Below are positions 8,081 to 58,664 of a stretch of DNA of 64,000 nucleotides, piece by piece (the stretch's first letter is position 1; each line of letters begins with the position of its first letter). Location of the stretch: the IMG/VR virus record IMGVR_UViG_3300032093_000121, positions 1-64,000 of that record; one strand, given 5' to 3'. The DNA comes from a virus. The notes under the pieces were generated by a model. The model worked only from the letters and a program-made list of their open reading frames with translations. It was not told the origin of the DNA and ran no database searches. The position numbers and the translations under genes are program-made.

Positions 8081-8284
8081 CTATCTTATGATGAGCCAGA
8101 TAACAAAGGCGATCACAGCCCAGAGGAGAAGACCTGGAATGATCGCGTTGCGAAGACCCTTCCAGAACTTGCCATCCACATGAGGACGATATCCCATTTG
8201 GAACTCCTTTATTATGATTGAAGGATCTAACGAAGGAGGAAGAACGACGAGAGCGATAACCATCGCAATTAGAATTTTATCCAT
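8081..8284 (-). CDS. Small membrane protein
   Basis: 67 aa with two hydrophobic segments (residues 4-16 and about 46-66). The start at 8284 overlaps the SLOG gene stop but has no clear ribosome site; an internal ATG at 8197 is preceded by AAAGGAG and would give a 38-aa single-span peptide. Either form is a small inner-membrane protein of unknown role. Confidence 0.6.
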   Translation of the reverse strand: MDKILIAMVIALVVLPPSLDPSIIIKEFQMGYRPHVDGKFWKGLRNAIIPGLLLWAVIAFVIWLIIR

Positions 8285-8672
8285 AGGAGATCACCGTGAG
8301 TTGGATGCCAGCTTTCTCTGATTGCTGGATCATGTTGAGAGTTCCTCTGCCGCCTGGAAAGGCGACCACATGCTCAACTTTCGTGAATTTGAGCATCCAT
8401 TGATTTCGAAGAATTCCCGCAGATTTTCCGAATCCTCCCCACTGAGCAGGAACAATAATCTCAGGTATCTTGTGAGCGATCGCCCATTCTCCGGCTAGAC
8501 GATCTGCACCATCTGCTCCTCCCTGCACTATGCAGGATATATGAAGATCATCTAGAGTACGAAACAGAAGATCTTTATCACGGAAATCTCTGCCTCCACA
8601 AACGAGAGTAACCTTCGGCTCTTCTCGTTTGTTCTGAAGATAGAAGCCCATTGCCATCTGTTCGCTATCCAC
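8277..8672 (-). CDS. SLOG-superfamily protein (DUF2493/YspA type)
   Basis: 131 aa, GTG start with GGGAGG seven bases upstream. It shows the SLOG nucleotide-binding pattern: CGGRDF near the N-terminus, GGADGAD in the middle and FPGGRGT with a following helix. Relatives bind NAD+, ADP-ribose or related nucleotides, and some act as sensors or hydrolases. Its immediate upstream neighbour is a NADAR-domain gene, so an NAD/ADP-ribose role is plausible for the pair. Confidence 0.8.
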   Translation of the reverse strand: MDSEQMAMGFYLQNKREEPKVTLVCGGRDFRDKDLLFRTLDDLHISCIVQGGADGADRLAGEWAIAHKIPEIIVPAQWGGFGKSAGILRNQWMLKFTKVEHVVAFPGGRGTLNMIQQSEKAGIQLTVISYG

Positions 8673-9084
8673 GAAGCGCCTCCCTGATCTTCATCAGCAG
8701 TTTGCCGAGGTTGTTCTGACCTTTGCCCTTGCACTGTCCCCAGAAGGTGTCGTTCCAGGTATTGATCTCCACTATCGGAATGTCGCCGGTCGCGAGTAAC
8801 TTCCCTCGCAACTCTGGCTCTTGGAACTTCTGCCACAGGAGATCTTCCATCACCTGGAGCTTGATGTCATCCCAATCATCGCGGAGATCGAACTGACGAC
8901 CGAGCCTCTTCACTTCTCCAGGACTGGTAGTTGTCTGTATCACTGAACGAATGAGAGGATCAGTCGTCTTCGCTGCGACATAGGCATGTTCGACAGTAGG
9001 ATATAGTTCTCCATCCAGCTTTACCATAGCCGGATGGAAGTTGGAGAGCCAGCGAAGCTCTCCAGTGAAAGGACCTATCGTCAT
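8665..9084 (-). CDS. NADAR (YbiA-like) domain protein
   Basis: 139 aa, full-length single NADAR domain: WLSNFHPA near residue 12, YPTVEHAY near 28, LGR and LRDDWD in the middle, NTWNDTFWG and a late NLGKLLM. NADAR proteins process ADP-ribose-linked N-glycosides, and some remove ADP-ribose from guanine in DNA. In a phage this could reverse or blunt an ADP-ribosylation or NAD-based defence. Coupled by overlap to both the exonuclease and the SLOG gene. Confidence 0.88.
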   Translation of the reverse strand: MTIGPFTGELRWLSNFHPAMVKLDGELYPTVEHAYVAAKTTDPLIRSVIQTTTSPGEVKRLGRQFDLRDDWDDIKLQVMEDLLWQKFQEPELRGKLLATGDIPIVEINTWNDTFWGQCKGKGQNNLGKLLMKIREALRG

Positions 9085-11145: not shown

Positions 11146-11361
11146 CTAACCTTTCATTTTCACGGTCACGACACCATATTTCCTCGGCATCCAAGAGCCA
11201 TTCTCTTTGCCGAAAGCCCATCCAGCGTCCATATCATAAGCGACACAGTTCGGGATATGAACATCATCGACAAAGACTTTGTCAACCATCTTCACAGCCT
11301 CTTTGTCGTAGCTTGGAGAGATGGGGTGAATCGAGAGTTTTCTCGGAGCTATCATGCCCAT
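11146..11361 (-). CDS. Small hypothetical protein
   Basis: 71 aa from the ATG at 11361, which has AGAGGAAG upstream; a GTG at 11385 would overlap the upstream gene by 34 bases. Mixed fold with a VFVDDVHIPNC segment. Its stop abuts the promoter at 11115-11143. Family unknown. Confidence 0.65.
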   Translation of the reverse strand: MGMIAPRKLSIHPISPSYDKEAVKMVDKVFVDDVHIPNCVAYDMDAGWAFGKENGSWMPRKYGVVTVKMKG

Positions 11362-11888
11362 GAAGGTCTTCCTCTGTTTGTCCACTTAGGAGCGTGAGTG
11401 TCGTTAGGCCACCGAGCCAGCAGATATTGACGATATGCCTCGGTGACAGGATCAATCCAGCTGAAGTCAATTCCAAGACTTGCGTTACGAGCAGAGTTCT
11501 GGAACGGTAGAAGTTCTCCATCTGGTAGATTGCTGGCAAATTGAGTGATGAAGTCTGTGCGACATGCAGAAGCATGTTCTTTGCCGAAACGATGCTCGAA
11601 CTCAGAGGCGAGAGCTCTGGCATGTTGAACGGTCCAACTGAAATTTCCTCGTGTCTGTCTGACCCAGATGGACACAGGGTGATTCTTATGAGCGAATCCA
11701 TCGCAGACTTTTCCGGGGCCGATCTCATTTGTCATGCAGATCAATTTCGGAAGTCCTCTGCTTGGAGTTGAGAGCTTCACTGCGAGTGAAAGCATTTGGT
11801 TTGCTTCCATGAGGAGCTTACCAACTCGTTTGTCATCGAGAGCCTGAGCAGAGAGAACAGGATCATCGTCTGTGGCGAAAATATTCAT
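11352..11888 (-). CDS. Conserved phage protein (MNIFxxDxDP type)
   Basis: 178 aa. The N-terminus (MNIFATDDDPVLSAQALDDKR, then LLMEANQML) and the HPVSIWVRQ-x-NFSWTVQHA stretch match a family common in phages that keeps a conserved DP, DK and HP-W pattern. I do not know an established function for it. Downstream of the 19-aa micro-gene and overlapping the next gene. Confidence 0.7.
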   Translation of the reverse strand: MNIFATDDDPVLSAQALDDKRVGKLLMEANQMLSLAVKLSTPSRGLPKLICMTNEIGPGKVCDGFAHKNHPVSIWVRQTRGNFSWTVQHARALASEFEHRFGKEHASACRTDFITQFASNLPDGELLPFQNSARNASLGIDFSWIDPVTEAYRQYLLARWPNDTHAPKWTNRGRPSWA

Positions 11889-18531: not shown

Positions 18532-18993
18532 TCAATTCGCAGCGTAACTTACGACCTCGAGGCCAGCCTGCTTCATCATCTCGAGCCCAAGGAGGCAGGA
18601 GGATTTCCAGCGCTCCTCGTCCCAGCCGCCAGCCGACTTCTGGAAGTAGACGACGCGCTTGATCCCGGCGTTGATGATGACGCCAGCGCACCGTTCGCAG
18701 GAAGGACCGTGTCCAGGAGGCCACGAGTATAGCGTCGCACCGCGAAGATCGTCGTGAGCGTTGAGGATCGCATTGACCTCGCCGTGAACGACTCGCCGGT
18801 ACTTCTCCTCGCGGTTGTTCCAGATTTCGAGGGACTGGTCTGTTCCTCTTGGGAAATCGTTGCAGCCTTGGGAGACGAGGCGACCGTCCTTTACGACGAC
18901 TGCCCCGCACTTCGTCGAGGGATCAGGAGAGTCCAGAGAGGCCACTCGGGCCATCTCCAGAAACTGACGATCAGCTTTCTCGATAACGTCCAT
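18532..18993 (-). CDS. dCMP deaminase
   Basis: 153 aa from the ATG at 18993, which overlaps the upstream TAA. Zinc-dependent deaminase motifs HGEVNA and PSCERCA are intact. It makes dUMP from dCMP. With the ThyA-family enzyme at 23414-24475 it would feed either dTMP or hydroxymethyl-dUMP synthesis. Confidence 0.92.
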   Translation of the reverse strand: MDVIEKADRQFLEMARVASLDSPDPSTKCGAVVVKDGRLVSQGCNDFPRGTDQSLEIWNNREEKYRRVVHGEVNAILNAHDDLRGATLYSWPPGHGPSCERCAGVIINAGIKRVVYFQKSAGGWDEERWKSSCLLGLEMMKQAGLEVVSYAAN

Positions 18994-19715
18994 TAGACGA
19001 TCCCCTCGTCCCGCTGGTGGAGCATCATCGCGAGATTGGCGACGTCGACCGGATCGCCCTTCTGCACGTGATTGCGGAGCATGTGAGACAGCTCTGCCTG
19101 AGAGCAGGCTTCCTTGTCTTCCCAGCCGCCGCGACCCTCGGCCCGCTTCTGCGCCAGCTTGTCCTTCATGGCCTCGGCGAATGCGTCGACCGCATCGTTG
19201 TCCGAGTGAGGAAGGATCGGCAGTTGCAGAACACGGTCCAGCTTCGGAGGCGAGTAGTTCGGCCCCTTCACGACGCGACCGGCGCTGCTCGTCACCGGCT
19301 TGCCGTTCTCGTCCAGCTTGCTCATGTTCGAGCGATGGACTTCGCGCAGACCGAGGTTCTTGTACTCGGAGAGCCCAAGAGTGATGTAGGTCCCGTCGAC
19401 GACGTAGCTGAGATCCACCAGCGCGTCGAAGCACTCGACGATATCGCGATTGATCATGCCCTCCGAGAGCTCGGCCAGTTCTTCCTGGATAAGCTGAAGA
19501 CGGATAAGGACGAGCGCCCCGGCCTCGTCTCCCTGCTCGCGAGCAGCCTGAGCATTCTGCTTCAGACGCTCACCGAGTTCGGCAGCGGCGACATGGTAGC
19601 TGGCGAGAGCTCCGGTCGCGTAGCTGGCGTAGACAGGGACTTCTGGCTTCGTCCCGATGAATGCGCCGAAGACAGCCTGGAACTGTCGAACGAGCGTGAT
19701 GCCAAGATCTTTCAT
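18993..19715 (-). CDS. MazG-like NTP pyrophosphohydrolase
   Basis: 240 aa. The helical core has QEELAELSEG and ECFDALVDLSYVVDG, the E-x-x-E ... E-x-x-D metal-binding pattern of all-alpha NTP pyrophosphatases, followed by SNMSKLDENGKPV and a KGPNYSPP motif typical of the phage branch. It hydrolyses (d)NTPs to monophosphates. In base-modifying phages such enzymes can remove the unwanted normal dNTP. Coupled to dCMP deaminase. Confidence 0.8.
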   Translation of the reverse strand: MKDLGITLVRQFQAVFGAFIGTKPEVPVYASYATGALASYHVAAAELGERLKQNAQAAREQGDEAGALVLIRLQLIQEELAELSEGMINRDIVECFDALVDLSYVVDGTYITLGLSEYKNLGLREVHRSNMSKLDENGKPVTSSAGRVVKGPNYSPPKLDRVLQLPILPHSDNDAVDAFAEAMKDKLAQKRAEGRGGWEDKEACSQAELSHMLRNHVQKGDPVDVANLAMMLHQRDEGIV

Positions 19716-19730
19716 ATCATTTCTCCTTTT

Positions 19731-19946
19731 CTACGATTGTTTCTCGAAGCGGTCGTTGAATTCTTCCACAGGGCGGACCCAGATCAGGCCGTCCTGCAGA
19801 CTGCGATAGACCACGACATCTCGCATATCTACGTCTGCCCCGTTGTCATCGAGGAAGTCGATCCAGTCTTTGGCCTGCATCTTCGCCTCGTGGAGACGCT
19901 CGTACAGACCACCAGATTTCTTATGCACCCAGACTTCAGGTTCCAT
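19731..19946 (-). CDS. DUF1653-like small protein
   Basis: 71 aa. The ending VVVYRSLQDGLIWVRPVEEF-x-DRFE matches the DUF1653 pattern. Function unknown. The polymerase stop lies directly before its start. Confidence 0.6.
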   Translation of the reverse strand: MEPEVWVHKKSGGLYERLHEAKMQAKDWIDFLDDNGADVDMRDVVVYRSLQDGLIWVRPVEEFNDRFEKQS

Positions 19947-22016
19947 TTAATGGATATCTCCCCAATTAGGGCCGACTTCAGTGTCGACCTTGAACGGGAC
20001 CATTGGCGACGCGACCTCCAGGATAGAGGTCCTCATGATATCGCCAGCGGCCACTGCCTCTGCGACGGAGCCGAAGCTGCCGTCGATTTCGTCGTGGACC
20101 TGAAGCTGGATATAGTACCCAGCCCGATCCAGATCGATAACTGCCTTCTTGGTCTGGTCGGCAGACGATCCCTGAATGACTCGGTTCAGCGCCTTATGTG
20201 TCCAGTCGTACGAGCCATCCGGACGCTGAGTGAAGTGCAGGCGGCGACCCATGATGGTTCGCACGAAACCGACACTCTCGGCCCTCTTGCTCGCTTTCTG
20301 GGCAATGCCACGGACATATGGAACTTCGGTATCGAAGTTGTCCAGGATCGCCTGACCTTCCAGACCGGCGACTTCACGAATGATGCCGTCACCTGCCGCT
20401 GCTCGAGCCGACCATGCCTCGTGGCGGTTCTCAAAATACTGAGTTTCCTTCTTGGAACCGTAGCCTCGGTGGAGAGCCCAGCGAGTGGGAAGACCGATGT
20501 CTTCGCAGAGCTTGGCACCGCCTTCACCGTAGCAGAGGCCGAGGAAGATCTGCTTGGAGTAGCCGCGATTGACCTTGTACGACTTCTTGTCGTTCTCGAA
20601 CCAGTCCTCGACCTGAGCGTCGCCGTGGATCAGCCGGGTCATCATATCGTGGTTGTCAGTGTCCGGATTGTCACGGTAGCGACGAGCGGCTTCCTCGGCT
20701 TTCGGCAAACCCATCACCGCAGCGAAGTGAGTCGTCCAGCGTGGCTCCTGCTGACTGTAGTCGTTGACGCCCCAGATCGCTCCCTCCTCAGGGATGAAAA
20801 TCTTTCGCCACTCCAGGATGATCTGCGGGTCGTCCGGTTGAACGCGATCTGGAGAATACTGCTGCTGAAGGTTCGGGTCGGTCGCTGACAGACGTCCGTA
20901 GCGAACTCCCTTCTGCTCGCCGCCTTCGTCCTCTCGTGCGATCTGGTGGAAAGTGCAGTGAATTCGCCCATTGGTCGCATACCGATGAATGGAGGCCGCG
21001 AAGGTCGTGCGGATCTTGTTCACCTTGCGAGCGTTGGATATCGCTTTCGCAACCGGATGCTTCAGACCTTCCAGCATTTCTGCGTCGATCTGCGGAGCGC
21101 CAGTGCTCGTCTTTCCGAGCTTCACTCCCAGCGACTCAAGGGCCGGTGCGAGAGCTCCAGCCTTCCAGACATCGCCGACAGCGACATTGACCCCGGTTTG
21201 ATCGCGAACGAAACGAAGAGCCTCGATCTCCTCGTTCAGCGCTCTCTCCTCGATCTCCCGCAATTTCTCAAAGTCGATCCGGACACCTCGCTGTCGCATC
21301 TTGACCAGCACCGGGAGAAGGGCTGTCTCCAGATCGAACACCTGCCACAGATCGTCTTTGTCGATGACCTCGCGCTGCTTCTCGTAGATGAGCAGGGGAG
21401 CGTCCACGTCGTTCTCTGCGTACTCGCCAACGTAGCGAGCGGGAAGCCTCCACATTCCGGCACCGGGGTCCAGCCCCATGGAGCGGGCAGCTTCGAAGAG
21501 AACGTCAGTCTCCTTACCCTTGACTCCCCACCGCTCGCCGATGTTCTTCAGGCTATACGAATGGTGAAGTTCGTAGATCAGCGGATCGGCGATTTGAATG
21601 TCACGGAACTTAACGTCCTGATGAAACTCGATACCGTCCGTGGCAGCGTAGTCGATATCATACGACAAGTTCGCGCCAACGATTTCGCCATCGAAGTTCT
21701 TCAGCTGCTCACGGAGATACCCGAGGACTGCCTCCACTGGCAGATTGTCCCCGCCCTCGTGGCGAATGGGAAGATAGTGTTTCGGCCCTCCCTCGATCTT
21801 GAAGCCCCATCCAGTGGTGTAGCCTCCTCTCCTTGGGCCAGGTCCGAGATCACGGAGCTGACTGTCCTTGGTTTCGCAGTCAAGTGCAACCCGCTTCGCT
21901 CCAGCCCAAGAAGGGAGGGAGCTCATCTCGGGTGCGCGCCAGGAACTGTCAGGCATCAAGAAACTCATCTGGACTGCGCCTCCTAGATTGGGGTTATGCT
22001 TTTTCTTGGTTGCCAT
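19947..22016 (-). CDS. polA: DNA polymerase, family A
   Basis: 689-aa class protein from the ATG at 22016. The N-terminal 3'-5' exonuclease (ALDCETKD, NLSYDID, YAENDVDAP) is intact, so it proofreads. The polymerase part shows motif A (NDYSQQEPR), motif B (KVNRGYSKQIFLGLCYGEGG) and motif C (QVHDEID). No 5'-nuclease domain. This is the replicative enzyme of the phage. It overlaps the small gene at 21994-22173 by 23 bases. Confidence 0.95.
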   Translation of the reverse strand: MATKKKHNPNLGGAVQMSFLMPDSSWRAPEMSSLPSWAGAKRVALDCETKDSQLRDLGPGPRRGGYTTGWGFKIEGGPKHYLPIRHEGGDNLPVEAVLGYLREQLKNFDGEIVGANLSYDIDYAATDGIEFHQDVKFRDIQIADPLIYELHHSYSLKNIGERWGVKGKETDVLFEAARSMGLDPGAGMWRLPARYVGEYAENDVDAPLLIYEKQREVIDKDDLWQVFDLETALLPVLVKMRQRGVRIDFEKLREIEERALNEEIEALRFVRDQTGVNVAVGDVWKAGALAPALESLGVKLGKTSTGAPQIDAEMLEGLKHPVAKAISNARKVNKIRTTFAASIHRYATNGRIHCTFHQIAREDEGGEQKGVRYGRLSATDPNLQQQYSPDRVQPDDPQIILEWRKIFIPEEGAIWGVNDYSQQEPRWTTHFAAVMGLPKAEEAARRYRDNPDTDNHDMMTRLIHGDAQVEDWFENDKKSYKVNRGYSKQIFLGLCYGEGGAKLCEDIGLPTRWALHRGYGSKKETQYFENRHEAWSARAAAGDGIIREVAGLEGQAILDNFDTEVPYVRGIAQKASKRAESVGFVRTIMGRRLHFTQRPDGSYDWTHKALNRVIQGSSADQTKKAVIDLDRAGYYIQLQVHDEIDGSFGSVAEAVAAGDIMRTSILEVASPMVPFKVDTEVGPNWGDIH

Positions 22017-22173
22017 TCTTTTCCTCGTACCTTCTCCACGCCAGAGCGGCATTCATTAGAGCTTCAGCCTCGGTGGCCCCGGTTCCGTGATGACCCGGAC
22101 CCTGCTTGATGTCGCAGCGCCACGAATGACCCTGTATCGGAGAGGCTTGCGGATAGATAACGATTGTAACCAC
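21994..22173 (-). CDS. Small hypothetical protein, GTG start
   Basis: 59 aa from a GTG at 22173 with AAAGGGG seven bases upstream, ending in TAA within the start of polA. It has a beta start (VVTIVIYPQ), then GHSWRCDIKQGPGHHGTG and a helix. The reading frame exactly bridges the repeat element and polA, which supports it. Family unknown. Confidence 0.6.
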   Translation of the reverse strand: MVTIVIYPQASPIQGHSWRCDIKQGPGHHGTGATEAEALMNAALAWRRYEEKNGNQEKA

Positions 22174-22194
22174 GAATGAACCCCTTTATTGCGA

Positions 22195-22335
22195 CTGTCA
22201 GACGGCGCTGGCCTTTGGTTGCCGTGCTAGGCTAGGCCAGCGCCGCGCTCGGAGGGCCTCTGAGGGCCTCGCCGTGCTAGGGTGGCATATACCCTAAGCC
22301 GTTGCGCCCCGCCCGCCAGCGGCCTTCTGAGCGGT
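22195..22335. repeat. GC-rich dispersed repeat element
   Basis: GC-rich stretch with CCTCTGAGGGCCTC and GTGCTAGG words. GCCAGCGGCCTTCTGAG (22315-22331) is identical to 38230-38246. The element runs into the 3' end of the DUF3310 gene and encodes its Ala/Gly-rich tail. Confidence 0.6.
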
Positions 22336-22824
22336 CTGGAGCAGGTCGTTTAACCGCCCCATCGTGGCCGCTCGTTCAGACTCTGACTCATCGTACTGGA
22401 AGAGGTTCAAGATGCCCCAGAGAGCCATCTCGTCTTCCCGCTCAATGTTGTTGGCGGCGATGAAACGATGTGTCGCAGCGCAGCCATCACGGAGGAAGAA
22501 ATCGTGGTTGAAGAAGTTCTTGCACCCACTTGCGATATACTTCTCGACATAGTGGATCGCCTTCTGAACGTCCTCAGCCCCGTTCTTCTTGCGCCACCGG
22601 ATGATGTATTTCGTCGCACACCCGATGACATAGGGAATGTCATGATCGATGACCCAGTCCCAATGCTGATAGGGAGAGCGATAGTGCTCTCCCCCGACTT
22701 GACGGTCGTTGACTTGCTCTGTGTTGAATTGCTCCATGCGGTTCCCTCTGTCACAAGTTGGATCGCGGCAGTCGTCGTACTCGTAGCGTTCCCTGCCGCA
22801 AGGACAGCCCCGGTCGTGGCTCAT
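22294..22824 (-). CDS. DUF3310 protein
   Basis: 176 aa from the ATG at 22824, which overlaps the HD-domain gene stop (ATGA); an internal ATG at 22737 is an alternative (147 aa). The N-terminus has four Cys in a CPCGRERYEYDDCRDPTC pattern (possible zinc site). Then comes the DUF3310 core with VGGEHY, HWD and ATKYIIRWRKK. DUF3310 proteins are common in phages near nucleotide genes. The C-terminal AQKAAGG tail comes from the repeat element. Confidence 0.8.
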   Translation of the reverse strand: MSHDRGCPCGRERYEYDDCRDPTCDRGNRMEQFNTEQVNDRQVGGEHYRSPYQHWDWVIDHDIPYVIGCATKYIIRWRKKNGAEDVQKAIHYVEKYIASGCKNFFNHDFFLRDGCAATHRFIAANNIEREDEMALWGILNLFQYDESESERAATMGRLNDLLQTAQKAAGGRGATA

Positions 22825-23414
22825 GCCAGCAACCTCTGAATGATGTGGCCTGTCCGCTCCGGACGAAGGTCGACCTCGTCCAGCCGCTTCCGGAGAGCCT
22901 CCGCTTCCTTGGGCAGAGGCCGGGTCACCCAAGCCTCCTCGAGAGCCAAGATGCATTCCTCAGCGAACCGATTGCCGAGGAACAACTGCTCCTTGCTCCA
23001 GAGCCAGAGTTCCAGATGATCGCAGGCTTTCAGCTTGCGGTGATCGTCCTCCGACAGGTCGCTCTCATTCGGCAGCCCGAGGGAGTGGCTGATGAGAGTT
23101 TCCATGCCAGCGATGCCTTCCCGGAGCCCAGGAATGTGACGCAGCGGAGGAGCGGGAATGTCGCCGACGACCCGCTCGGGAACGTCGTGTGCCAGACAGG
23201 CGAGAGCCAGCCGGGGGAAGTCCTCCGGCCAGAGATAGTGCATCAGCATGGCGACGCCCCACGAGTGAGCAGCGTTGCTGTAGGAGCCGAGATGAACGAC
23301 GCCGTGGCACCGCTCGACCTTCCCGCCAGCCCTGCTCTCGATCACGTTGCGAGCGGTCCTGGCGACCTCGGAGATCGTGGCCGGTTCGTCCCGGCAGTCA
23401 TCATAGTGACCCAT
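22821..23414 (-). CDS. HD-domain 5'-nucleotidase (YfbR-like)
   Basis: 197 aa from the ATG at 23414. HD motifs: an early Cys-His region, HSWGVAM, CLAHDVPERVVGDIP and a later acidic residue, in the order found in YfbR-like dNMP phosphohydrolases. It would dephosphorylate a deoxynucleoside monophosphate. In hmU phages a dTMP phosphatase has this role. Coupled by overlap to the ThyA-family gene, which supports a nucleotide-pool function. Confidence 0.75.
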   Translation of the reverse strand: MGHYDDCRDEPATISEVARTARNVIESRAGGKVERCHGVVHLGSYSNAAHSWGVAMLMHYLWPEDFPRLALACLAHDVPERVVGDIPAPPLRHIPGLREGIAGMETLISHSLGLPNESDLSEDDHRKLKACDHLELWLWSKEQLFLGNRFAEECILALEEAWVTRPLPKEAEALRKRLDEVDLRPERTGHIIQRLLA

Positions 23415-24475
23415 CAGCTTGCACTCCGCTTGCGACGCTCGAGCCACTCGGTCGCGGCCAGCTTCCAGTCGCTGGCTTCGCACGACTCCAAATGACGGAG
23501 AGCGTCGGTGAAACGGTTCTTGTTGTCACGGTCCTTGTAGGAGAACCATGCGTTCCACATGGGGCTGACGACCTTGCGGAAGAAGCGATCCTGGAACCCT
23601 GGGATCGGTCCGCTTTCCATGAACATCAGCAGATCGCCGATCCACGCTTCGATGGGACCGTTAACCATCGGGAACGGCTGAACGACTGGCTGGTTCTTGC
23701 GACCGTACTGATACGGATCGATCTCGAACTTGCCGAACTCGCCGCGCTCGATCAAGCTCTTATGCTTGTCGAAGACATTGACGTAGGCGTGCCAGTCATT
23801 GCTGACTTGCCAGTAGCGACCGACCGGAACACCGATCCACCCTGCCATGAATTCCTGGAGCATGGACATGTGAACTGCGTTCGCGCCGTATGCACCCCAG
23901 ATGATATCATTGGAGCGATTGAGGACGGTCATGTTGAGGCGACCGTCGGTGCCGATCTTGAAGTAGATCTGCGTATTGCAGGGAACGTCCTTGCCGACGC
24001 GACCGAGATCGGACTCGGCATCCCACATTTGGAGGACGCAGCGTCGCTCCTTGGGATTCTTCTTCAACATTTCGGCGATCTGCTGAAGCTGGTTGAACGG
24101 GACATATTCGGGGCTGTCCTCGTCTGGGCCGATGTCAGTCACGAAATGGTTGATCCAGCGATAGCCGTAGGCTCCGTGGAAGGTTTCGCCATCGTCGCTG
24201 AACTGACTGATGTTCGCGCTGAACTGCGAAATCCAGCCGACGTCGTTCCGTCCAGCCAGCATCCACAGACCTTCCATGAAGTGGAAGAATGGGTTGGCGT
24301 CCCGATCAGCCCAGAAGAGAACCCGTTCGGTCGGTTTCTCGTAGAGCGTGGTGACAGGGGTCTTCGCAACCAGAACATCGCCAGCGCGACTCTCGTTGCG
24401 AACCCCGTCGCTTGCCAGAGTGGCCATCCCCTTGTAGAGAGCCTCCTGGACGTTTCGTACTTCTAGGACTTTCAA
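23414..24475 (-). CDS. ThyA-family enzyme, probable dUMP hydroxymethylase
   Basis: 353 aa from a TTG at 24475, preceded by AGGAGG five bases upstream; the frame before it lacks a good start. Family residues are present: catalytic Cys166 in VPCNTQI, NRSND (187-190), Asn199 (uracil-type selector) and HAY near 229-231. By eye, E. coli TS Trp80 aligns with Ser90 and Trp83 with Ser93, without gaps from Glu68. Loss of this Trp is associated with hydroxymethylation instead of methylation. Retained Asn199 points to dUMP rather than dCMP. Alternative: an unusual thymidylate synthase. Confidence 0.75.
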   Translation of the reverse strand: MKVLEVRNVQEALYKGMATLASDGVRNESRAGDVLVAKTPVTTLYEKPTERVLFWADRDANPFFHFMEGLWMLAGRNDVGWISQFSANISQFSDDGETFHGAYGYRWINHFVTDIGPDEDSPEYVPFNQLQQIAEMLKKNPKERRCVLQMWDAESDLGRVGKDVPCNTQIYFKIGTDGRLNMTVLNRSNDIIWGAYGANAVHMSMLQEFMAGWIGVPVGRYWQVSNDWHAYVNVFDKHKSLIERGEFGKFEIDPYQYGRKNQPVVQPFPMVNGPIEAWIGDLLMFMESGPIPGFQDRFFRKVVSPMWNAWFSYKDRDNKNRFTDALRHLESCEASDWKLAATEWLERRKRSAS

Positions 24476-24476
24476 C

Positions 24477-24683
24477 TCAGCCTCCTGTGATCTCTTTAAT
24501 GATGAGATCGGCGGGACCGTCGACCTCGGCGATTTTCGCAGCGATCTCAGCAGGTGTGAGATCGATGAACTTCCCGGCGATGACTGCCGCCGTGAGAAGA
24601 TTGACGAATGTGAGGCGAGGATCACCGGAGGCGTTGTTCGCCATCGTGAGAACTGCCGCTATCGTGTGAGTGGGATTCAACAT
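24477..24683 (-). CDS. Small hypothetical protein
   Basis: 68 aa from the ATG at 24683, overlapping the upstream stop (TGATG). Ala-rich helical protein; the second half (LTPAEIAAKIAEVDG) is like a small three-helix fold. Unknown. Confidence 0.65.
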   Translation of the reverse strand: MLNPTHTIAAVLTMANNASGDPRLTFVNLLTAAVIAGKFIDLTPAEIAAKIAEVDGPADLIIKEITGG

Positions 24684-24889
24684 CAGTTCAGGTTCCTCAG
24701 AGGTATGAAGCCAGTGGACCAGAACCATTTCTCGTCACTGACTTCTTCGAACGAGTAGAAGAGCTGGCCGAAGATGTTCTTCCGGTCCAGGACTGTCAGC
24801 CGCATTCCCTGATGGAGCGCCTCGAACTTATCTCCGTAGGCGTTCCACCAATCGTCATGCTGACAGATGCACTTCTCGCCGCGCTCCAT
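24683..24889 (-). CDS. Small hypothetical protein
   Basis: 68 aa with a CICQHDDWW start and aromatic-rich beta pattern, ending FIPLRNLN. Directly after the glycosyltransferase gene (one base apart). Family unknown. Confidence 0.65.
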   Translation of the reverse strand: MERGEKCICQHDDWWNAYGDKFEALHQGMRLTVLDRKNIFGQLFYSFEEVSDEKWFWSTGFIPLRNLN

Positions 24890-24890
24890 G

Positions 24891-25670
24891 TCAGGCTCCT
24901 GCCGATGCCCGAGCCTTCTTCCAGAAGACTGTCACTTCGGTGCGGTTGCCGAACTCGCCGCCAGTCTTGTTTTCCTTCTGGCGAATGTTCACGAAGCCGG
25001 GGTGGAGCTCGGCCAGCCGGTGAGCCGAGACCGCTTGGGTCTCCAGGGTGCGATAGTCGGACGATCCGCCTGGAGCGTTGGTCCCGCCCTGATTGTAGCA
25101 GAACTCGGACAGCAGATGGTTGTCGAAGCCCAACCGGAGAAGCTGGAGGTTCACGTCGAAGTCGTTCATCGGATTCATGCGATCGTGGATCACACGCTCG
25201 TCGAGGAACATGCTGCGACGGTAGATGATGCAGCCGTTGAGACGCGTATTCGCGTTGCCCTCGGGCTCGAGCCGATTGTTGCCCTGACGCATGGAGACGC
25301 CGACACCGTAGAGGTTGCTGTTCTTGGCGAACAGACCCTCGATGGCCTCGACCATGTCGTCCCAGTCGTCATCTTCCATCTTGCGGAGCTGAGGCTCGAA
25401 CGGATCGCTGCGACGGAAGAACACGAAGTCGTCGTCGCAGAGCATCACGAGTTCATCGGTGGCGTCCTTGGCCATCTGCTCCAGCTTGCGACCGAGCAGG
25501 TCGTTCAGCGTGGTCACCGACTTGATGGTCAGGCTTGGATTGGCGGCTTGGTAGTCGCCCTTCTGCTCGACTGCGACATAGACCGTCGTGTTCGCGAGGT
25601 ACTTCTCGGGAATGTTCGACGGGGTGACCATCGTCTTGGGACGAGAGCGGGACGGGATCAGAATCTGCAT
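24891..25670 (-). CDS. Glycosyltransferase of the TET-associated (TAGT) type
   Basis: 259 aa from the ATG at 25670, which has GGAGG upstream. GT-A-like fold: ILIPSRSRP start, a DDD metal motif in LVMLCDDDFVFF (about residues 77-88), VGVSMRQ, an NGCIIYRR stretch, and DFDVNLQLLRLG with a Gly-rich QGGTNAPGG loop. The order fits phage glycosyltransferases linked to modified DNA bases. A UDP-hexose epimerase is the upstream neighbour. It could glycosylate hmU in DNA; modifying the cell surface is the alternative. Confidence 0.7.
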   Translation of the reverse strand: MQILIPSRSRPKTMVTPSNIPEKYLANTTVYVAVEQKGDYQAANPSLTIKSVTTLNDLLGRKLEQMAKDATDELVMLCDDDFVFFRRSDPFEPQLRKMEDDDWDDMVEAIEGLFAKNSNLYGVGVSMRQGNNRLEPEGNANTRLNGCIIYRRSMFLDERVIHDRMNPMNDFDVNLQLLRLGFDNHLLSEFCYNQGGTNAPGGSSDYRTLETQAVSAHRLAELHPGFVNIRQKENKTGGEFGNRTEVTVFWKKARASAGA

Positions 25671-25693
25671 ATTAACCTCCAATGGATAGGCTC

Positions 25694-25722
25694 AGTATAG
25701 CCTCTTACTGTTCAGATGACAA
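25694..25722 (-). promoter_or_regulatory. TTGTCA-TGAAC class promoter
   Basis: TTGTCA (25717-25722), TC, TGAAC, 17-base spacer, TATACT (25694-25699), the best -10 of the class. It overlaps the last codons of the epimerase gene and drives the glycosyltransferase and the genes through the HD nucleotidase. Confidence 0.75.
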
Positions 25723-26655
25723 GCGCAGTGTTTCAGCTTCCCACGCGTCCCGGCACATTTGATCCATGGTGCGACGCGCCTCCCAGCCGGTCGCAGCCTT
25801 GATCGCCCCGGAGTTCGACACGCTGTATTCCAGATCGCCGGTTCGCTTGAGATCGACCATCGTCTTGGGAATGTCGCGGTTGATCACCTTCTCCATATAC
25901 TCGACGATCGTGCCGATCTTGTATCCCTTGCCACTGCCGACATTGAAGACATGATGACCGGTGAGGCCTTCCAGACGGAAGTGGACTTCGGCCAGATCGG
26001 AGACGTGAATGAAGTCTCGGACGTTCTCGCCGTTGTTGAAGATCGGCAGAGAGCGGACCCGGCCAGCCGCCGCTCCGGTGAGCATCGACATGAAGGTATT
26101 GGAGCGATACTGCGGAAGCAGAAGATGCGCCGCGATCGGATTGAAGTAGCGAAGAGTGATCGCTGTCTTCCCTCTCTGGGCAAAGTCGGCGACCATTTCC
26201 TCAGCCATCATCTTGCTCCGGCCGTATGCCGAAGTCGGCTTCACCGGAGAATTCTCCGACACAGGGAAGCGGCTCTCACCGTAGACTGCGGCCGAGGATG
26301 AAAAGACCAGTCGGTCCATTCCGCTGTCCAGCATCGCCTGAAGAACGGTCACGGTTCCGTTCACGTTCCTCTCGTAATACTGGAGAGGGATCTCCTCCGA
26401 CTCGCTGGCGTCTTTCAGTCCGGCAGCATGAATGGTGAGGTCCGGACGGAACTTCCGCATGGAGTCCGTGAGAAGGGCGCGATCGAGAATGTCGCCCTTG
26501 ACGATCCAAGCCCCTCGGGAGCCCAGGAAGGAGACAAGTCCTGGTCCGGAGTTCGACAGATCGTCGAAGATCATGACCTTGTGTCCCTGGACGAGCGCTT
26601 GCAGTGCGATATGGGAGCCGATGTATCCGGCTCCCCCGGTGATGAGTATCCGCAT
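25705..26655 (-). CDS. galE: UDP-glucose/hexose 4-epimerase-like protein
   Basis: 316 aa. The NAD-binding GGAGYIGSH (about residues 7-15), SSSAAVYG and the SAYGRSK catalytic Tyr-x3-Lys are all intact, as in the GalE branch of extended short-chain dehydrogenases. It would interconvert UDP-glucose and UDP-galactose (or related sugars) and could supply the neighbouring glycosyltransferase. Confidence 0.88.
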   Translation of the reverse strand: MRILITGGAGYIGSHIALQALVQGHKVMIFDDLSNSGPGLVSFLGSRGAWIVKGDILDRALLTDSMRKFRPDLTIHAAGLKDASESEEIPLQYYERNVNGTVTVLQAMLDSGMDRLVFSSSAAVYGESRFPVSENSPVKPTSAYGRSKMMAEEMVADFAQRGKTAITLRYFNPIAAHLLLPQYRSNTFMSMLTGAAAGRVRSLPIFNNGENVRDFIHVSDLAEVHFRLEGLTGHHVFNVGSGKGYKIGTIVEYMEKVINRDIPKTMVDLKRTGDLEYSVSNSGAIKAATGWEARRTMDQMCRDAWEAETLRLSSEQ

Positions 26656-26661
26656 GGTGTT

Positions 26662-27570
26662 CTACCTCGGTTTGTATCTGGAGCGGGGACGACCCTGCCC
26701 GAGCCTGACTCGCTCGTACTTGTCGAACTCGCAGAGTTGGAATTGGATGTCCGTCGGGTAGAGATGACCATATTCCGACGGCCAGTATTCTCCCTGGATT
26801 TCGGTGAGCTTGAGGATCACCTCCAGAGCTTGGGACGGACGGAGAGTGTTGTGCTCCGGCCAGTCGTGTCCACACAGTCGAGCGGCTCCCTTGAGGCCTC
26901 CAGGGCCGATCGGAGTCCACTTGCTGTAGTCGGCGGGGAACATGACGTCGTAGTCGCCCTGCTTCACCTTCGTCGTGTCCCAGAAGTCCGTCATCATGGT
27001 GTCAAGGAGGATCTCCTTGGTCATGAAGCCGGTGCCTCCAAAGCCGCCGATCACGGACATTGCACGAGCGACTTTCTCCCAGCTCCTTGTCATTTGAACG
27101 ACTTGAAGCAACTCAGGAACCGCTGCGTGAAGATCCTTCATGAAATAGTTGACGACGACATCCTGCTTCGGGGCACTGATGCCCTGATTGGTGACGACGT
27201 AGGCTCCGGTGAAGACCCTCTGCCCAGAGGCGAGGCGACGTCTCGCAGTGTCTGCGATCTCCTCGAAGTCGAAGGTGTCGTAGTCCTGCCAGCCGACGGC
27301 ATCGGCGAACTCGTATGTCCCGAAGTAACGGAACAGAGCGCAGTTCATCAGGATCGAGCGACGATCGTCATCGCGGTGTTCCGCATAGAAGTTCTCGCGG
27401 AGCATGGTCGTGGTCCAGTCGTAGTGACGACGGACGTTGGTGAACTTGAAATCCTGGAGGATTTGATCGCTCGTCCAGGGACGAGGCAGGCCCGCCTCCT
27501 TACGGAGACGGACCTGCTCGCGCTCTGCCATAAAGGCGAAGAACGCGCCGGTGTTGACCGGCGCTTCCAT
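26662..27570 (-). CDS. 5-hmdU kinase helical domain / thymine pyrophosphorylase-like protein
   Basis: 302 aa. The start (a FMAEREQVRLRKEAG-type segment, PWTSDQIL, FTNVRRHYDWTT) fits the helical, DNA-glycosylase-like family that includes the helical domain of 5-hmdU DNA kinases and the alpha-glutamyl/putrescinyl-thymine pyrophosphorylases. No P-loop is present, so it would be the standalone type. Relatives act on hydroxymethylated thymine in phage DNA. It sits between the epimerase and a histone-like gene. Assignment by pattern memory only. Confidence 0.65.
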   Translation of the reverse strand: MEAPVNTGAFFAFMAEREQVRLRKEAGLPRPWTSDQILQDFKFTNVRRHYDWTTTMLRENFYAEHRDDDRRSILMNCALFRYFGTYEFADAVGWQDYDTFDFEEIADTARRRLASGQRVFTGAYVVTNQGISAPKQDVVVNYFMKDLHAAVPELLQVVQMTRSWEKVARAMSVIGGFGGTGFMTKEILLDTMMTDFWDTTKVKQGDYDVMFPADYSKWTPIGPGGLKGAARLCGHDWPEHNTLRPSQALEVILKLTEIQGEYWPSEYGHLYPTDIQFQLCEFDKYERVRLGQGRPRSRYKPR

Positions 27571-28340
27571 TACGCGGTCTTCGCAGCGGCGGCGTCGGCC
27601 TTGGCCTTGTCGTCGGCGGCCTTCTTGTCGGCCTTGGCCTTGTCAGCCGCAGCCTTGGCTTCGGCCTTCTCGGCATCCTTCTTGGCCTTGGCGTCGGCCT
27701 TGGCCTTGGCGTCGGCTTCCTTCTTGGCCTTGGCCTCTTCGGCCTTCTTGGCGCGCTCTTCTTCGCGCTTCTTCTTGGCCGCGTTGGGGTTCTCGAGGCC
27801 GTTGCGCTGATACCACGCGTCGACACCGGCCTGGAATTCTTCGTCGGTCGGGTCGTGCAGCTTGACGAAGCCGTTCTCGGCGTACCAGTAGATGTCGAGC
27901 GGCGTCATGTTCGCGCCCTCGATGGTCTCGAGAACGGTCATGCCGTCAGTGTAGTTGTTCCAGCGTTCCTTGACGCGATCGGGTTCCTTGATCTTTTCGA
28001 TCTTGCGGAACATGCCGCGAGTCGGCCGCTTGACGGTGGCCGGTTCGGCGCCCTTGACGTGACGGGGCTCCTTCGGCTCCTTGGGAGCAGCAGGCTTCTT
28101 GCCCGCCTTGGTGTCGGTCGAATTGGCCAGATCGGCCTCGGCAGTGCCGGCGAACTTCTGCAGGGCCTTCCAGGTCGCGTCCTTGGCCTGAGCGTGGTCC
28201 TTGAAGTTCTTGATGCGAGCGACGCCGAGGTTTTCGGCAACGAGGTTGCGAAGCTGAAGCAGGTCGGCTTCGCTCATGTTGTTCACCGACTCCTGCGTGT
28301 AGGCAGTCGAGTTGAACTGGACAGTTTCGGTATCAGCCAT
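27570..28340 (-). CDS. DNA-binding-like protein with histone H1-like tail
   Basis: 256 aa. Residues about 108-181 form the domain shared with the product at 93-590. Residues about 188-256 are almost only Ala, Lys, Asp and Glu in AKAKADAK-type repeats, like the tails of bacterial histone H1-like proteins, so nucleic-acid binding is likely. It has its own promoter (28401-28429) and its stop overlaps the next start. Role unknown; it may coat or organise DNA. Confidence 0.75.
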   Translation of the reverse strand: MADTETVQFNSTAYTQESVNNMSEADLLQLRNLVAENLGVARIKNFKDHAQAKDATWKALQKFAGTAEADLANSTDTKAGKKPAAPKEPKEPRHVKGAEPATVKRPTRGMFRKIEKIKEPDRVKERWNNYTDGMTVLETIEGANMTPLDIYWYAENGFVKLHDPTDEEFQAGVDAWYQRNGLENPNAAKKKREEERAKKAEEAKAKKEADAKAKADAKAKKDAEKAEAKAAADKAKADKKAADDKAKADAAAAKTA

Positions 28341-57605: not shown

Positions 57606-58664
57606 TTACGCTTCGCGAGTCACGAGGCGAGCAAACTTGATCTGCTTGCGTTCGCTGTAGACGCGGTTCCAAGAAGCCGCTTCGTCCAGGTCAGCGCCAG
57701 CCGTACCAGTGTTCGCAGGACCACCGTTCGGAGGAGTGCCGATGAAGGCGTGACCGACCGGATGGACAGCCCATTCGACGCGAGAGTACAGGACTTCCTG
57801 ACCGCCACCGTTGCCGCCACCAGCCTTGCGTTCGACTTCCGTCGGAACCTTGGGAGTGCCGACACCGAGACGAGTGGAGCCACCACCGAAGAGCCACGTG
57901 TCGTAGACGTTGCCGACACGAGGAACGTTATCATCGACGATGACTTCGCGACCCAGGAACGTCGGAATGTTGACGCGACCCTCAGAGTCAGGAATGAAGT
58001 CGATGAGGTTGTTCTTCTGCATCCGGTTGTAGACGACCGAGTGGGCGACGACAGCGGTGAGATCTTCCATCGAGTCGCCCATCGTGAGCGAAGCATCAAG
58101 GAAGGCCTCAGCAGAGAAGTTGGTCACACCATCGACGAACGCGCTGCCGGAGATGTTGTTCACATAGTCACCAGCATCGTTGGCGACGTTGTCAGCGATG
58201 ACACCGTTCCAGGTTGCGATGAAAGCGGCCTGAAGACGACGAGTCCAGTAGAAAGCGACGCGGTCAGCGATTGCTTCCATGGGATCCTTGCCAGCAAGCG
58301 AAGCAGCAAGGTCAGAGCTCGACCAGGAATTGTTGCGGCTCAGACGAACTGCGATTTCCTGGGCCGACTGGATCTTCAGCGGGTTCGGAGGACGAGCGAC
58401 GCCGCCAGGAAGCGAAGCATCGGCATCTGCGAACGGCACCGAGGTATCCGTGGAGACGCGCTCAGCATCATTGTCCAGATCGCGGAACGACGGGACGTTG
58501 AAGGTGAGACCACCACCAGTCAGGAGGTTGTCCATCGCAGCGTCACGGACCGCGAGGCCCGACTGGATGATACGAGCCTTCTGCTCGGTGAGTTGCTGGA
58601 CGTAGGGAGTGAAAATCTGGGGGACGACGACGTCTGCCACCCGAGTCATGGGTCCGGTTGCCAT
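57606..58664 (-). CDS. Major capsid protein
   Basis: 352 aa. Pattern of a non-cleaved HK97-fold-type coat protein: VADVVVPQIFTPYVQQLTEQKARIIQSG start, FNVPSFRDLDNDAE, DPMEAIADRVAFYWTRRLQ, and AHPVGHAFIGTPP near the end. Behind scaffold and portal genes, with its own promoter (58770-58798). Confidence 0.88.
   Translation of the reverse strand: MATGPMTRVADVVVPQIFTPYVQQLTEQKARIIQSGLAVRDAAMDNLLTGGGLTFNVPSFRDLDNDAERVSTDTSVPFADADASLPGGVARPPNPLKIQSAQEIAVRLSRNNSWSSSDLAASLAGKDPMEAIADRVAFYWTRRLQAAFIATWNGVIADNVANDAGDYVNNISGSAFVDGVTNFSAEAFLDASLTMGDSMEDLTAVVAHSVVYNRMQKNNLIDFIPDSEGRVNIPTFLGREVIVDDNVPRVGNVYDTWLFGGGSTRLGVGTPKVPTEVERKAGGGNGGGQEVLYSRVEWAVHPVGHAFIGTPPNGGPANTGTAGADLDEAASWNRVYSERKQIKFARLVTREA

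Follow-up and report, generated by a model that had tools for sequence, protein, structure and literature searches.

A phage gene cassette that probably builds glycosylated hydroxymethyluracil DNA, with HMUDK_hel as a putative base-presenting subunit shared by different transferases

We describe a putative DNA hypermodification cassette in a 64,000-nucleotide stretch of virus DNA (the window), which is nearly all of the 64,061-base IMG/VR record IMGVR_UViG_3300032093_000121. The cassette forms one compact minus-strand run ordered around a family A DNA polymerase, with genes for a dCMP deaminase, a MazG-like/PRA-PH protein, the polymerase, a DUF3310 protein, an HD nucleotidase, a ThyA-family enzyme, a 68-amino-acid open reading frame (ORF), a TAGT glycosyltransferase, the epimerase GalE and an HMUDK_hel protein, in that order (Table 1). 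The E-values of these genes are far outside chance, and the gene order is repeated in independent contigs. A preliminary description, made from the letters of the DNA, had proposed a 5-hydroxymethyluracil (hmU) type pathway at this locus. All genes that it named are present, as judged by Pfam, TIGRFAM and PHROG profile matches; the polymerase and DUF3310 genes lie inside the same interval and were not in its list. Membership of the products at 24891 and 26662 in families unrelated to DNA modification would have spoken against that proposal. Profile searches placed both inside DNA-modification families (phrog_842 and PF18723), and assigned the products at 18993 and 22821 to PF01503/phrog_671 and phrog_6047/phrog_318. 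Judging from sequence, the cassette probably builds glycosylated hmU DNA, with HMUDK_hel acting as a reusable subunit that would present the base to its modifying enzyme.

Table 1 Genes of the cassette (columns: feature, position in the window, strand, profile matches with E-values).
dCMP deaminase (dCMP to dUMP, precursor supply)	18532-18990	-	PF00383 7e-17; phrog_174 1e-35
PRA-PH/MazG-like nucleotide pyrophosphohydrolase	18993-19715	-	PF01503 1.8e-6, above cut-off; phrog_671 7e-28
Family A DNA polymerase	19947-22052	-	PF00476 4e-39; phrog_17 4e-98
DUF3310 protein (start 22824 or 22737)	22294-22824	-	PF11753 3e-6; phrog_5839 1.5e-28
HD-domain nucleotidase, YfbR-like	22821-23414	-	PF12917 1.8e-5, slightly below Pfam cut-off; phrog_6047 5e-38; phrog_318 (dNMP phosphatase) 1e-11
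ThyA-family enzyme, predicted dUMP 5-hydroxymethylase	23414-24475	-	PF00303 3e-22; phrog_5131 4e-127
68-amino-acid ORF	24683-24889	-	no family match
TAGT-type GT-A glycosyltransferase, DDD motif	24891-25670	-	PF20691 6e-6; phrog_842 1e-27
UDP-glucose 4-epimerase (GalE)	25705-26655	-	TIGR01179 4e-78, above equivalog cut-off
HMUDK_hel protein (alias aGPT-Pplase1)	26662-27570	-	PF18723 1e-33

The start codon of the ThyA-family gene is a TTG with GGAGG upstream, in agreement with its homologues. The roles of active-site residues in this family are established, and we aligned the active site of the window enzyme with those of E. coli ThyA, T4 gp42 (dCMP hydroxymethylase), SPO1 gp29 (dUMP hydroxymethylase) and M6 gp58. 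The window enzyme retains the catalytic Cys146, Arg166-Ser167, Asp169, His207 and Tyr209, together with the uracil-type Asn177, which it shares with ThyA and SPO1 and which T4 gp42 lacks. Its catalytic cysteine is followed by an asparagine (PCN), as in SPO1 gp29 and M6, and the segment bearing Trp80 is missing, likewise in SPO1 and M6. The altered active site suspected in the preliminary description is therefore of the SPO1 dUMP hydroxymethylase/M6 type and not that of ThyA or of T4 dCMP hydroxymethylase. The best deposited relatives are M6-family enzymes (~50% identity), and this kinship and the active-site pattern make the enzyme most likely a dUMP 5-hydroxymethylase. Together with synteny to M6, PaMx11 and Bhz59, the dUMP-hydroxymethylase-like active site upholds the proposal of an hmU-type hypermodification cassette.

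We consider it very unlikely that the enzyme makes thymidylate or 5-hydroxymethylcytosine (hmC), so that the base would be thymine or glycosylated hmC. It does belong to the ThyA family, known TAGT enzymes of TET and T6 phages act on hmC, and Microbacterium phage Morrigan (L099, 4277-7869) combines HMUDK_hel and TAGT with a T4-like enzyme of the dCMP hydroxymethylase type. However, the retained Asn177, the SPO1-like PCN, the missing Trp80 segment and the identity to M6-family enzymes all argue against this possibility, as does the dCMP deaminase in the same operon. Morrigan's T4-like enzyme raises the possibility that HMUDK_hel may serve hmC besides hmU. With regard to nucleotide supply, the HD protein matches the position of its counterparts in M6 (gp59) and PaMx11 and is probably a deoxynucleoside monophosphate (dNMP) phosphatase; the PRA-PH/MazG-like protein is a possible cleaner of the deoxynucleoside triphosphate pool. 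The DUF3310 protein of the window consists of the DUF3310 part alone, without the kinase part.

M6-type cassettes comprise a hydroxymethylase, a kinase, a radical S-adenosylmethionine (SAM) enzyme, a pyridoxal phosphate (PLP) enzyme, aGPT-Pplase1 and aGPT-Pplase2 (PMC9476957). The Pfam names of the last two are HMUDK_hel and amino-acid:DNA transferase, and we confirmed the M6-type set in Bhz59, PaMx11 and M6. In the window genome, neither the 5-hydroxymethyldeoxyuridine (5-hmdU) DNA kinase family PF18748 nor the amino-acid:DNA transferase family PF18724 had a match anywhere. Our own kinase profile recovered only replication and helicase ATPases (E 0.01 or worse), and no survey-profile match was obtained in the window for radical SAM, PLP or flavin adenine dinucleotide (FAD) partners. 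ORFs with a well-formed Walker A motif were all explained (AAA ATPase, clamp-loader-like ATPase, primase/helicase, Dda-like helicase and terminase). A hidden P-loop kinase was therefore rejected, which agrees with the preliminary description, where no separate P-loop DNA kinase had been seen and a route different from known ones had been suggested; without such a kinase, the route is unlike the known amino-acid ones. The slot that the kinase and the amino-acid:DNA transferase hold in M6-type cassettes is occupied by GalE and TAGT.

An M6-like amino-acid hypermodification that relies on a host or unrecognised kinase and transferase appears highly improbable. The HMUDK_hel family is best known from such pathways, and the record may be incomplete. 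Nonetheless, the missing transferase, the lack of radical SAM, PLP and FAD matches in the window and the fully explained Walker A ORFs speak against it. Glycosyltransferase-bearing relatives also lack the kinase: on whole contigs, PF18748 was found in none of the tested glycosyltransferase-type records (50-95 kb) and in 3 of 4 kinase-type records. Three other systems were rejected as well, namely a Z-genome (2-aminoadenine) system (no PurZ, PF00709, despite HD, MazG-like and PolA genes), 7-deazaguanine DNA modification (no QueC, PF06508) and a TET/JBP route (no Tet_JBP, PF12851, in the genome).

The TAGT product scored 26.7 bits against PF20691, 0.8 bits below the cut-off of 27.5, and its homologue LuckyBarnes_40 scored 55.3 bits. 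Its AlphaFold2 model (predicted local distance difference test, pLDDT, of 90.8) has a GT-A fold whose best PDB structure matches are UDP-sugar transferases of the GT-A type (probability 1.00). The DDD sequence is a DxD-type metal motif, with D82-D84 invariant across 30 homologues. GalE scored 262.6 bits against TIGR01179 (equivalog cut-off 262.3), and GxxGxxG and YxxxK are visible directly in its sequence. Since GalE exceeds the equivalog cut-off and adjoins HMUDK_hel in all four close relatives (L002, L003, L004 and L013), UDP-galactose is a reasonable candidate donor for TAGT, which is predicted to hexosylate hmU in DNA. The decorating enzymes would most likely glycosylate hmU directly and not through a pyrophosphorylated intermediate, and hexosyl-hmU, not an amino-acid thymine, is the likely product.

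Undecorated hmU is known from SPO1, and GalE genes usually belong to envelope-sugar pathways. It is conceivable, though quite unlikely, that plain hmU replaces thymine here as in SPO1, and that TAGT and GalE have other targets, such as surface polysaccharide or protein. In every close relative that covers the region, however, TAGT and GalE are packed tightly between HMUDK_hel and the hydroxymethylase, and across related loci (see below) this slot holds a transferase in 41 of 42 cases; SPO1 itself has neither HMUDK_hel nor TAGT.

The HMUDK_hel product matched PF18723 with 117.4 bits (cut-off 25), and aGPT-Pplase1 and HMUDK_hel are two names of one family. The preliminary description had labelled it a member of a '5-hmdU kinase helical/thymine pyrophosphorylase family'. 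Its family is clear, but the pyrophosphorylase chemistry is unsupported given that the genome has no amino-acid:DNA transferase. The AlphaFold2 model is very confident (pLDDT 94.7). Compared with viral structure predictions, it resembled the PhiW-14 and phiRSL1 members of its family and the helical part of the SP10 5-hmdU DNA kinase, with E-values down to 2e-12, and outside its own family it matched an amino-acid:DNA transferase (probability 0.99, E 0.03). The top PDB match, a weak one, was 8z2n (PaMx11 gp46 glycinyltransferase), followed by the queuine salvage enzyme DUF2419, which is related to helix-hairpin-helix (HhH) DNA glycosylases. Sequence searches of the PDB with TAGT and with HMUDK_hel yielded nothing useful. 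HHalign joined HMUDK_hel and the amino-acid:DNA transferases across a short HhH-like stretch (E 1.4e-4, probability 53%). HMUDK_hel has a set of invariant residues (R16, F42, N44, R47, D50, F181, D189, G221, G223, G227, C279, E280, K283, Y284 and R286). Judging from its fold matches, HMUDK_hel may be a base-flipping scaffold in which catalysis has possibly been lost.

HMUDK_hel profiles detected at least 583 relatives in IMG/VR, and we examined the best 80 of these, each with 10 kb flanks. HMUDK_hel was accompanied by a kinase in 10 loci and by a glycosyltransferase in 66; one locus had both (L051) and three had neither (L002, which is cut off, and the unclassified L027 and L079). L027 is an exception with a radical SAM gene and a 327-amino-acid ORF without Pfam match. 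Three glycosyltransferase types were found beside HMUDK_hel (TAGT, GT-B of the GT4 kind, and a third that is weakly glycosyltransferase-like), and Pfam matches, in part weak, back the identification of the GT-B, radical SAM and kinase genes. In the 51 fully flanked loci, a family A DNA polymerase lies near the cassette in 49, and kinase and transferase exclude each other (8 kinase, 42 transferase, 1 both; Fisher p 2e-6), as they do after dereplication to 22 loci (p 4e-4). The transferase sits between HMUDK_hel and the hydroxymethylase in 41 of the 42 loci.

On a tree of 72 HMUDK_hel proteins, the partner changed at least 14 times (minimum possible 3; mean with shuffled labels 31), and the invariant residues are retained in proteins of every partner type. 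The four-member clade of the window lies inside a supported set with the GT-B users L016 and L019 (HMUDK_hel 63-64% identical), where GT-B takes the slot that holds TAGT in the window clade. The deep part of the tree is unsure because of the long branches L005, L099 and L103. No match to the GT-B enzyme of the sister clade was obtained in the deposited/cultured-phage collection. Scanning bacterial genomes yielded just 12 loci, from metagenome-assembled bins. Because the partner changes so often while the invariant residues stay, HMUDK_hel is probably a shared base-presenting subunit and not a kinase-specific domain.

It is unlikely, in our estimation, that HMUDK_hel is itself catalytic, as a transferase or lyase of the amino-acid:DNA transferase superfamily that performs an extra step on glycosylated or bare hmU. 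Its many invariant polar residues (R16, N44, R47, D50, D189, E280, K283, Y284 and R286) and its fold kinship to amino-acid:DNA transferases would fit such a role. However, a single extra reaction common to partners as chemically unrelated as a kinase, GT-A and GT-B enzymes is hard to picture, and Lys150, invariant in the amino-acid:DNA transferases, has no conserved counterpart in HMUDK_hel in what is a short and uncertain alignment.

Several neighbours were noted during the survey. FkbM-type methyltransferases and SPASM radical SAM genes stand beside the glycosyltransferase in the slot between HMUDK_hel and the hydroxymethylase in L016 (10954-13936), L042 (7682-9654) and L055 (10887-12853), which suggests more elaborate, methylated or rearranged sugar adducts in these sister loci. 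Directly upstream of HMUDK_hel in the window lies a gene for a Lys/Ala-rich 256-amino-acid protein (27570-28340, minus strand) without family match, and a similar gene lies upstream of HMUDK_hel in L023. No natural fusion of HMUDK_hel with a glycosyltransferase was found in the survey; a 587-amino-acid ORF in L023 was rejected as such a fusion, being merely an upstream in-frame extension that overlaps the preceding gene.

Among complete cultured genomes, SPO1 (plain hmU) and T4 (hmC) lack HMUDK_hel, and HMUDK_hel occurs with a PF18748 kinase in M6, PaMx11, TM26, AG3 and SBSphiC; in SBSphiC the two are fused. LuckyBarnes and Morrigan have HMUDK_hel and TAGT without the kinase. This pattern indicates that HMUDK_hel tracks hydroxymethyl decoration and not the mere presence of a hydroxymethyl group, although not every TAGT needs it. 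Our interpretation must be weighed against several observations. Acinetobacter phage nACB2 (L009) and Nodularia phage kac65v151 (L101) carry HMUDK_hel with neither PF18748 nor TAGT genome-wide, and TAGT can work without HMUDK_hel, as ctUhy936 has TAGT and a hydroxymethylase alone; in T6-like phages TAGT is assigned to the di-glucosylation of hmC (PMC13390438). One unclassified exception, L051, has TAGT and a P-loop protein together. The partner proportions are biased, the 80 loci being the most window-like of the relatives, and the partner profiles, built by iteration from known members, could miss or over-collect kinases and glycosyltransferases. The PDB-level fold tie of HMUDK_hel to DNA-binding base-flipping enzymes is weak (E 0.5), and GalE could serve another pathway. 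In kac65v151, the HMUDK_hel gene lies apart from every recognised modification gene.

Taken together, the genes should replace some or all thymine of the phage DNA by hmU, to which a sugar is then added. From their families, dCMP deaminase would make dUMP, which the ThyA-family enzyme would convert to 5-hydroxymethyl-dUMP, as its active site and kinship suggest; host kinases would raise this to hmdUTP, and the HD and MazG-like enzymes would trim rival nucleotides. The family A polymerase would then insert hmdU into DNA. After replication, TAGT would use a UDP-sugar, probably the UDP-galactose that GalE would supply, to attach a hexose to the hydroxymethyl group, with HMUDK_hel binding hmU in DNA and presenting it to the transferase, as expected for the fused kinase in SP10-type phages. 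The partner of HMUDK_hel would be a kinase in some lineages and a GT-A or GT-B enzyme in others. More tentatively, and with somewhat less than even confidence, we propose that HMUDK_hel is neither a kinase domain nor a pyrophosphorylase but a general subunit for recognising hydroxymethylpyrimidine in DNA, with a DNA-glycosylase-like, non-cutting fold and interchangeable partners (kinase, GT-A TAGT or GT-B), which may set which residues are decorated; in the window, GalE and TAGT would replace the kinase/amino-acid route and yield galactosyl-oxymethyluracil, a phage analogue of base J.

In the available literature, HMUDK_hel/aGPT-Pplase1 has two conflicting names and an unclear role. Its occurrence with kinases, TAGT and GT-B, always next to a hydroxymethylase, predicts that it has one common role, namely to recognise the hydroxymethyl base in DNA. 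A further prediction is that a large number of phages, nearly all of them uncultured, have glycosylated hmU; among these are phages whose GT-B enzymes are unmatched in the cultured-phage collection. If true, HMUDK_hel could explain the partial thymine decoration in M6-type phages and would offer a modular means of attaching chosen groups to hmU in DNA. A TAGT-like gene near the HMUDK_hel family is already known from pelagiphages (PMC9599517). Of greater interest is that unrelated transferases have HMUDK_hel in common. Our literature search, with some key papers of the field outside its reach, returned no statement of a kinase/transferase swap or of glycosylated hmU from such a cassette.

Elsewhere in the window, all on the minus strand, the genes for a NADAR-domain protein (PF08719, 8665-9084) and a YspA/cpYpsA SLOG protein (PF10686, 8277-8672) overlap; this NAD/ADP-ribose-linked pair, at 8277-9084, could serve counter-defence or NAD metabolism. 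A pyrimidine-dimer DNA glycosylase of the T4 endonuclease V kind lies at 11352-11888 (PF03013 2e-5, phrog_624). The major head protein (57606-58664) is ~60% identical to those of NP1/PaMx25-type Pseudomonas phages and the hydroxymethylase is nearest to M6-family phages, which indicates a mosaic genome. No DNA-level relatives of the window were found among deposited phages.

Compared with known systems, the window resembles Pseudomonas phages M6 and PaMx11 and Stenotrophomonas phage Bhz59 (Mesyanzhinovviridae) in its hydroxymethylase (~50% identical), HMUDK_hel, HD protein, family A polymerase and dCMP deaminase, which stand in the same order. It differs from them in having GalE and TAGT in place of the P-loop 5-hmdU DNA kinase, the amino-acid:DNA transferase and the radical SAM, PLP and FAD enzymes. 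Brevibacterium phage LuckyBarnes and Microbacterium phage Morrigan share with it a hydroxymethylase-family enzyme, TAGT, HMUDK_hel and the lack of a kinase, at a protein identity to the window of only ~25%. LuckyBarnes differs in having two TAGTs and no GalE nearby, and Morrigan in a ThyA relative that resembles dCMP hydroxymethylase. HTVC023P-type pelagiphages carry thymidylate synthase, aG/PT-PPlase1, 5'-deoxynucleotidase and a TAGT-like gene, which were read as possibly extending the M6 system; in the portion of that account available, kinase loss and partner swaps are not discussed and GalE is not mentioned (PMC9599517). Glycosylated thymine derivatives are contained in SP-15 DNA (PMC5977210) and suspected in YerA41 (PMC9023294), and 5-HMUDK phosphorylates hmU in DNA and not hmC (PMC6457204). 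In the fused 5-hmdU DNA kinase of SP10/SBSphiC, the C-terminal half has the HMUDK_hel fold, whereas the window protein lacks the kinase half. The synthesis of base J (beta-D-glucosyl-hydroxymethyluracil) in kinetoplastids begins with JBP dioxygenases that oxidise thymine in DNA; in the window, which has no Tet_JBP domain, hmU would instead be made as a nucleotide. Nonetheless, the predicted end product of the window resembles base J in carrying a hexose on 5-hydroxymethyluracil.

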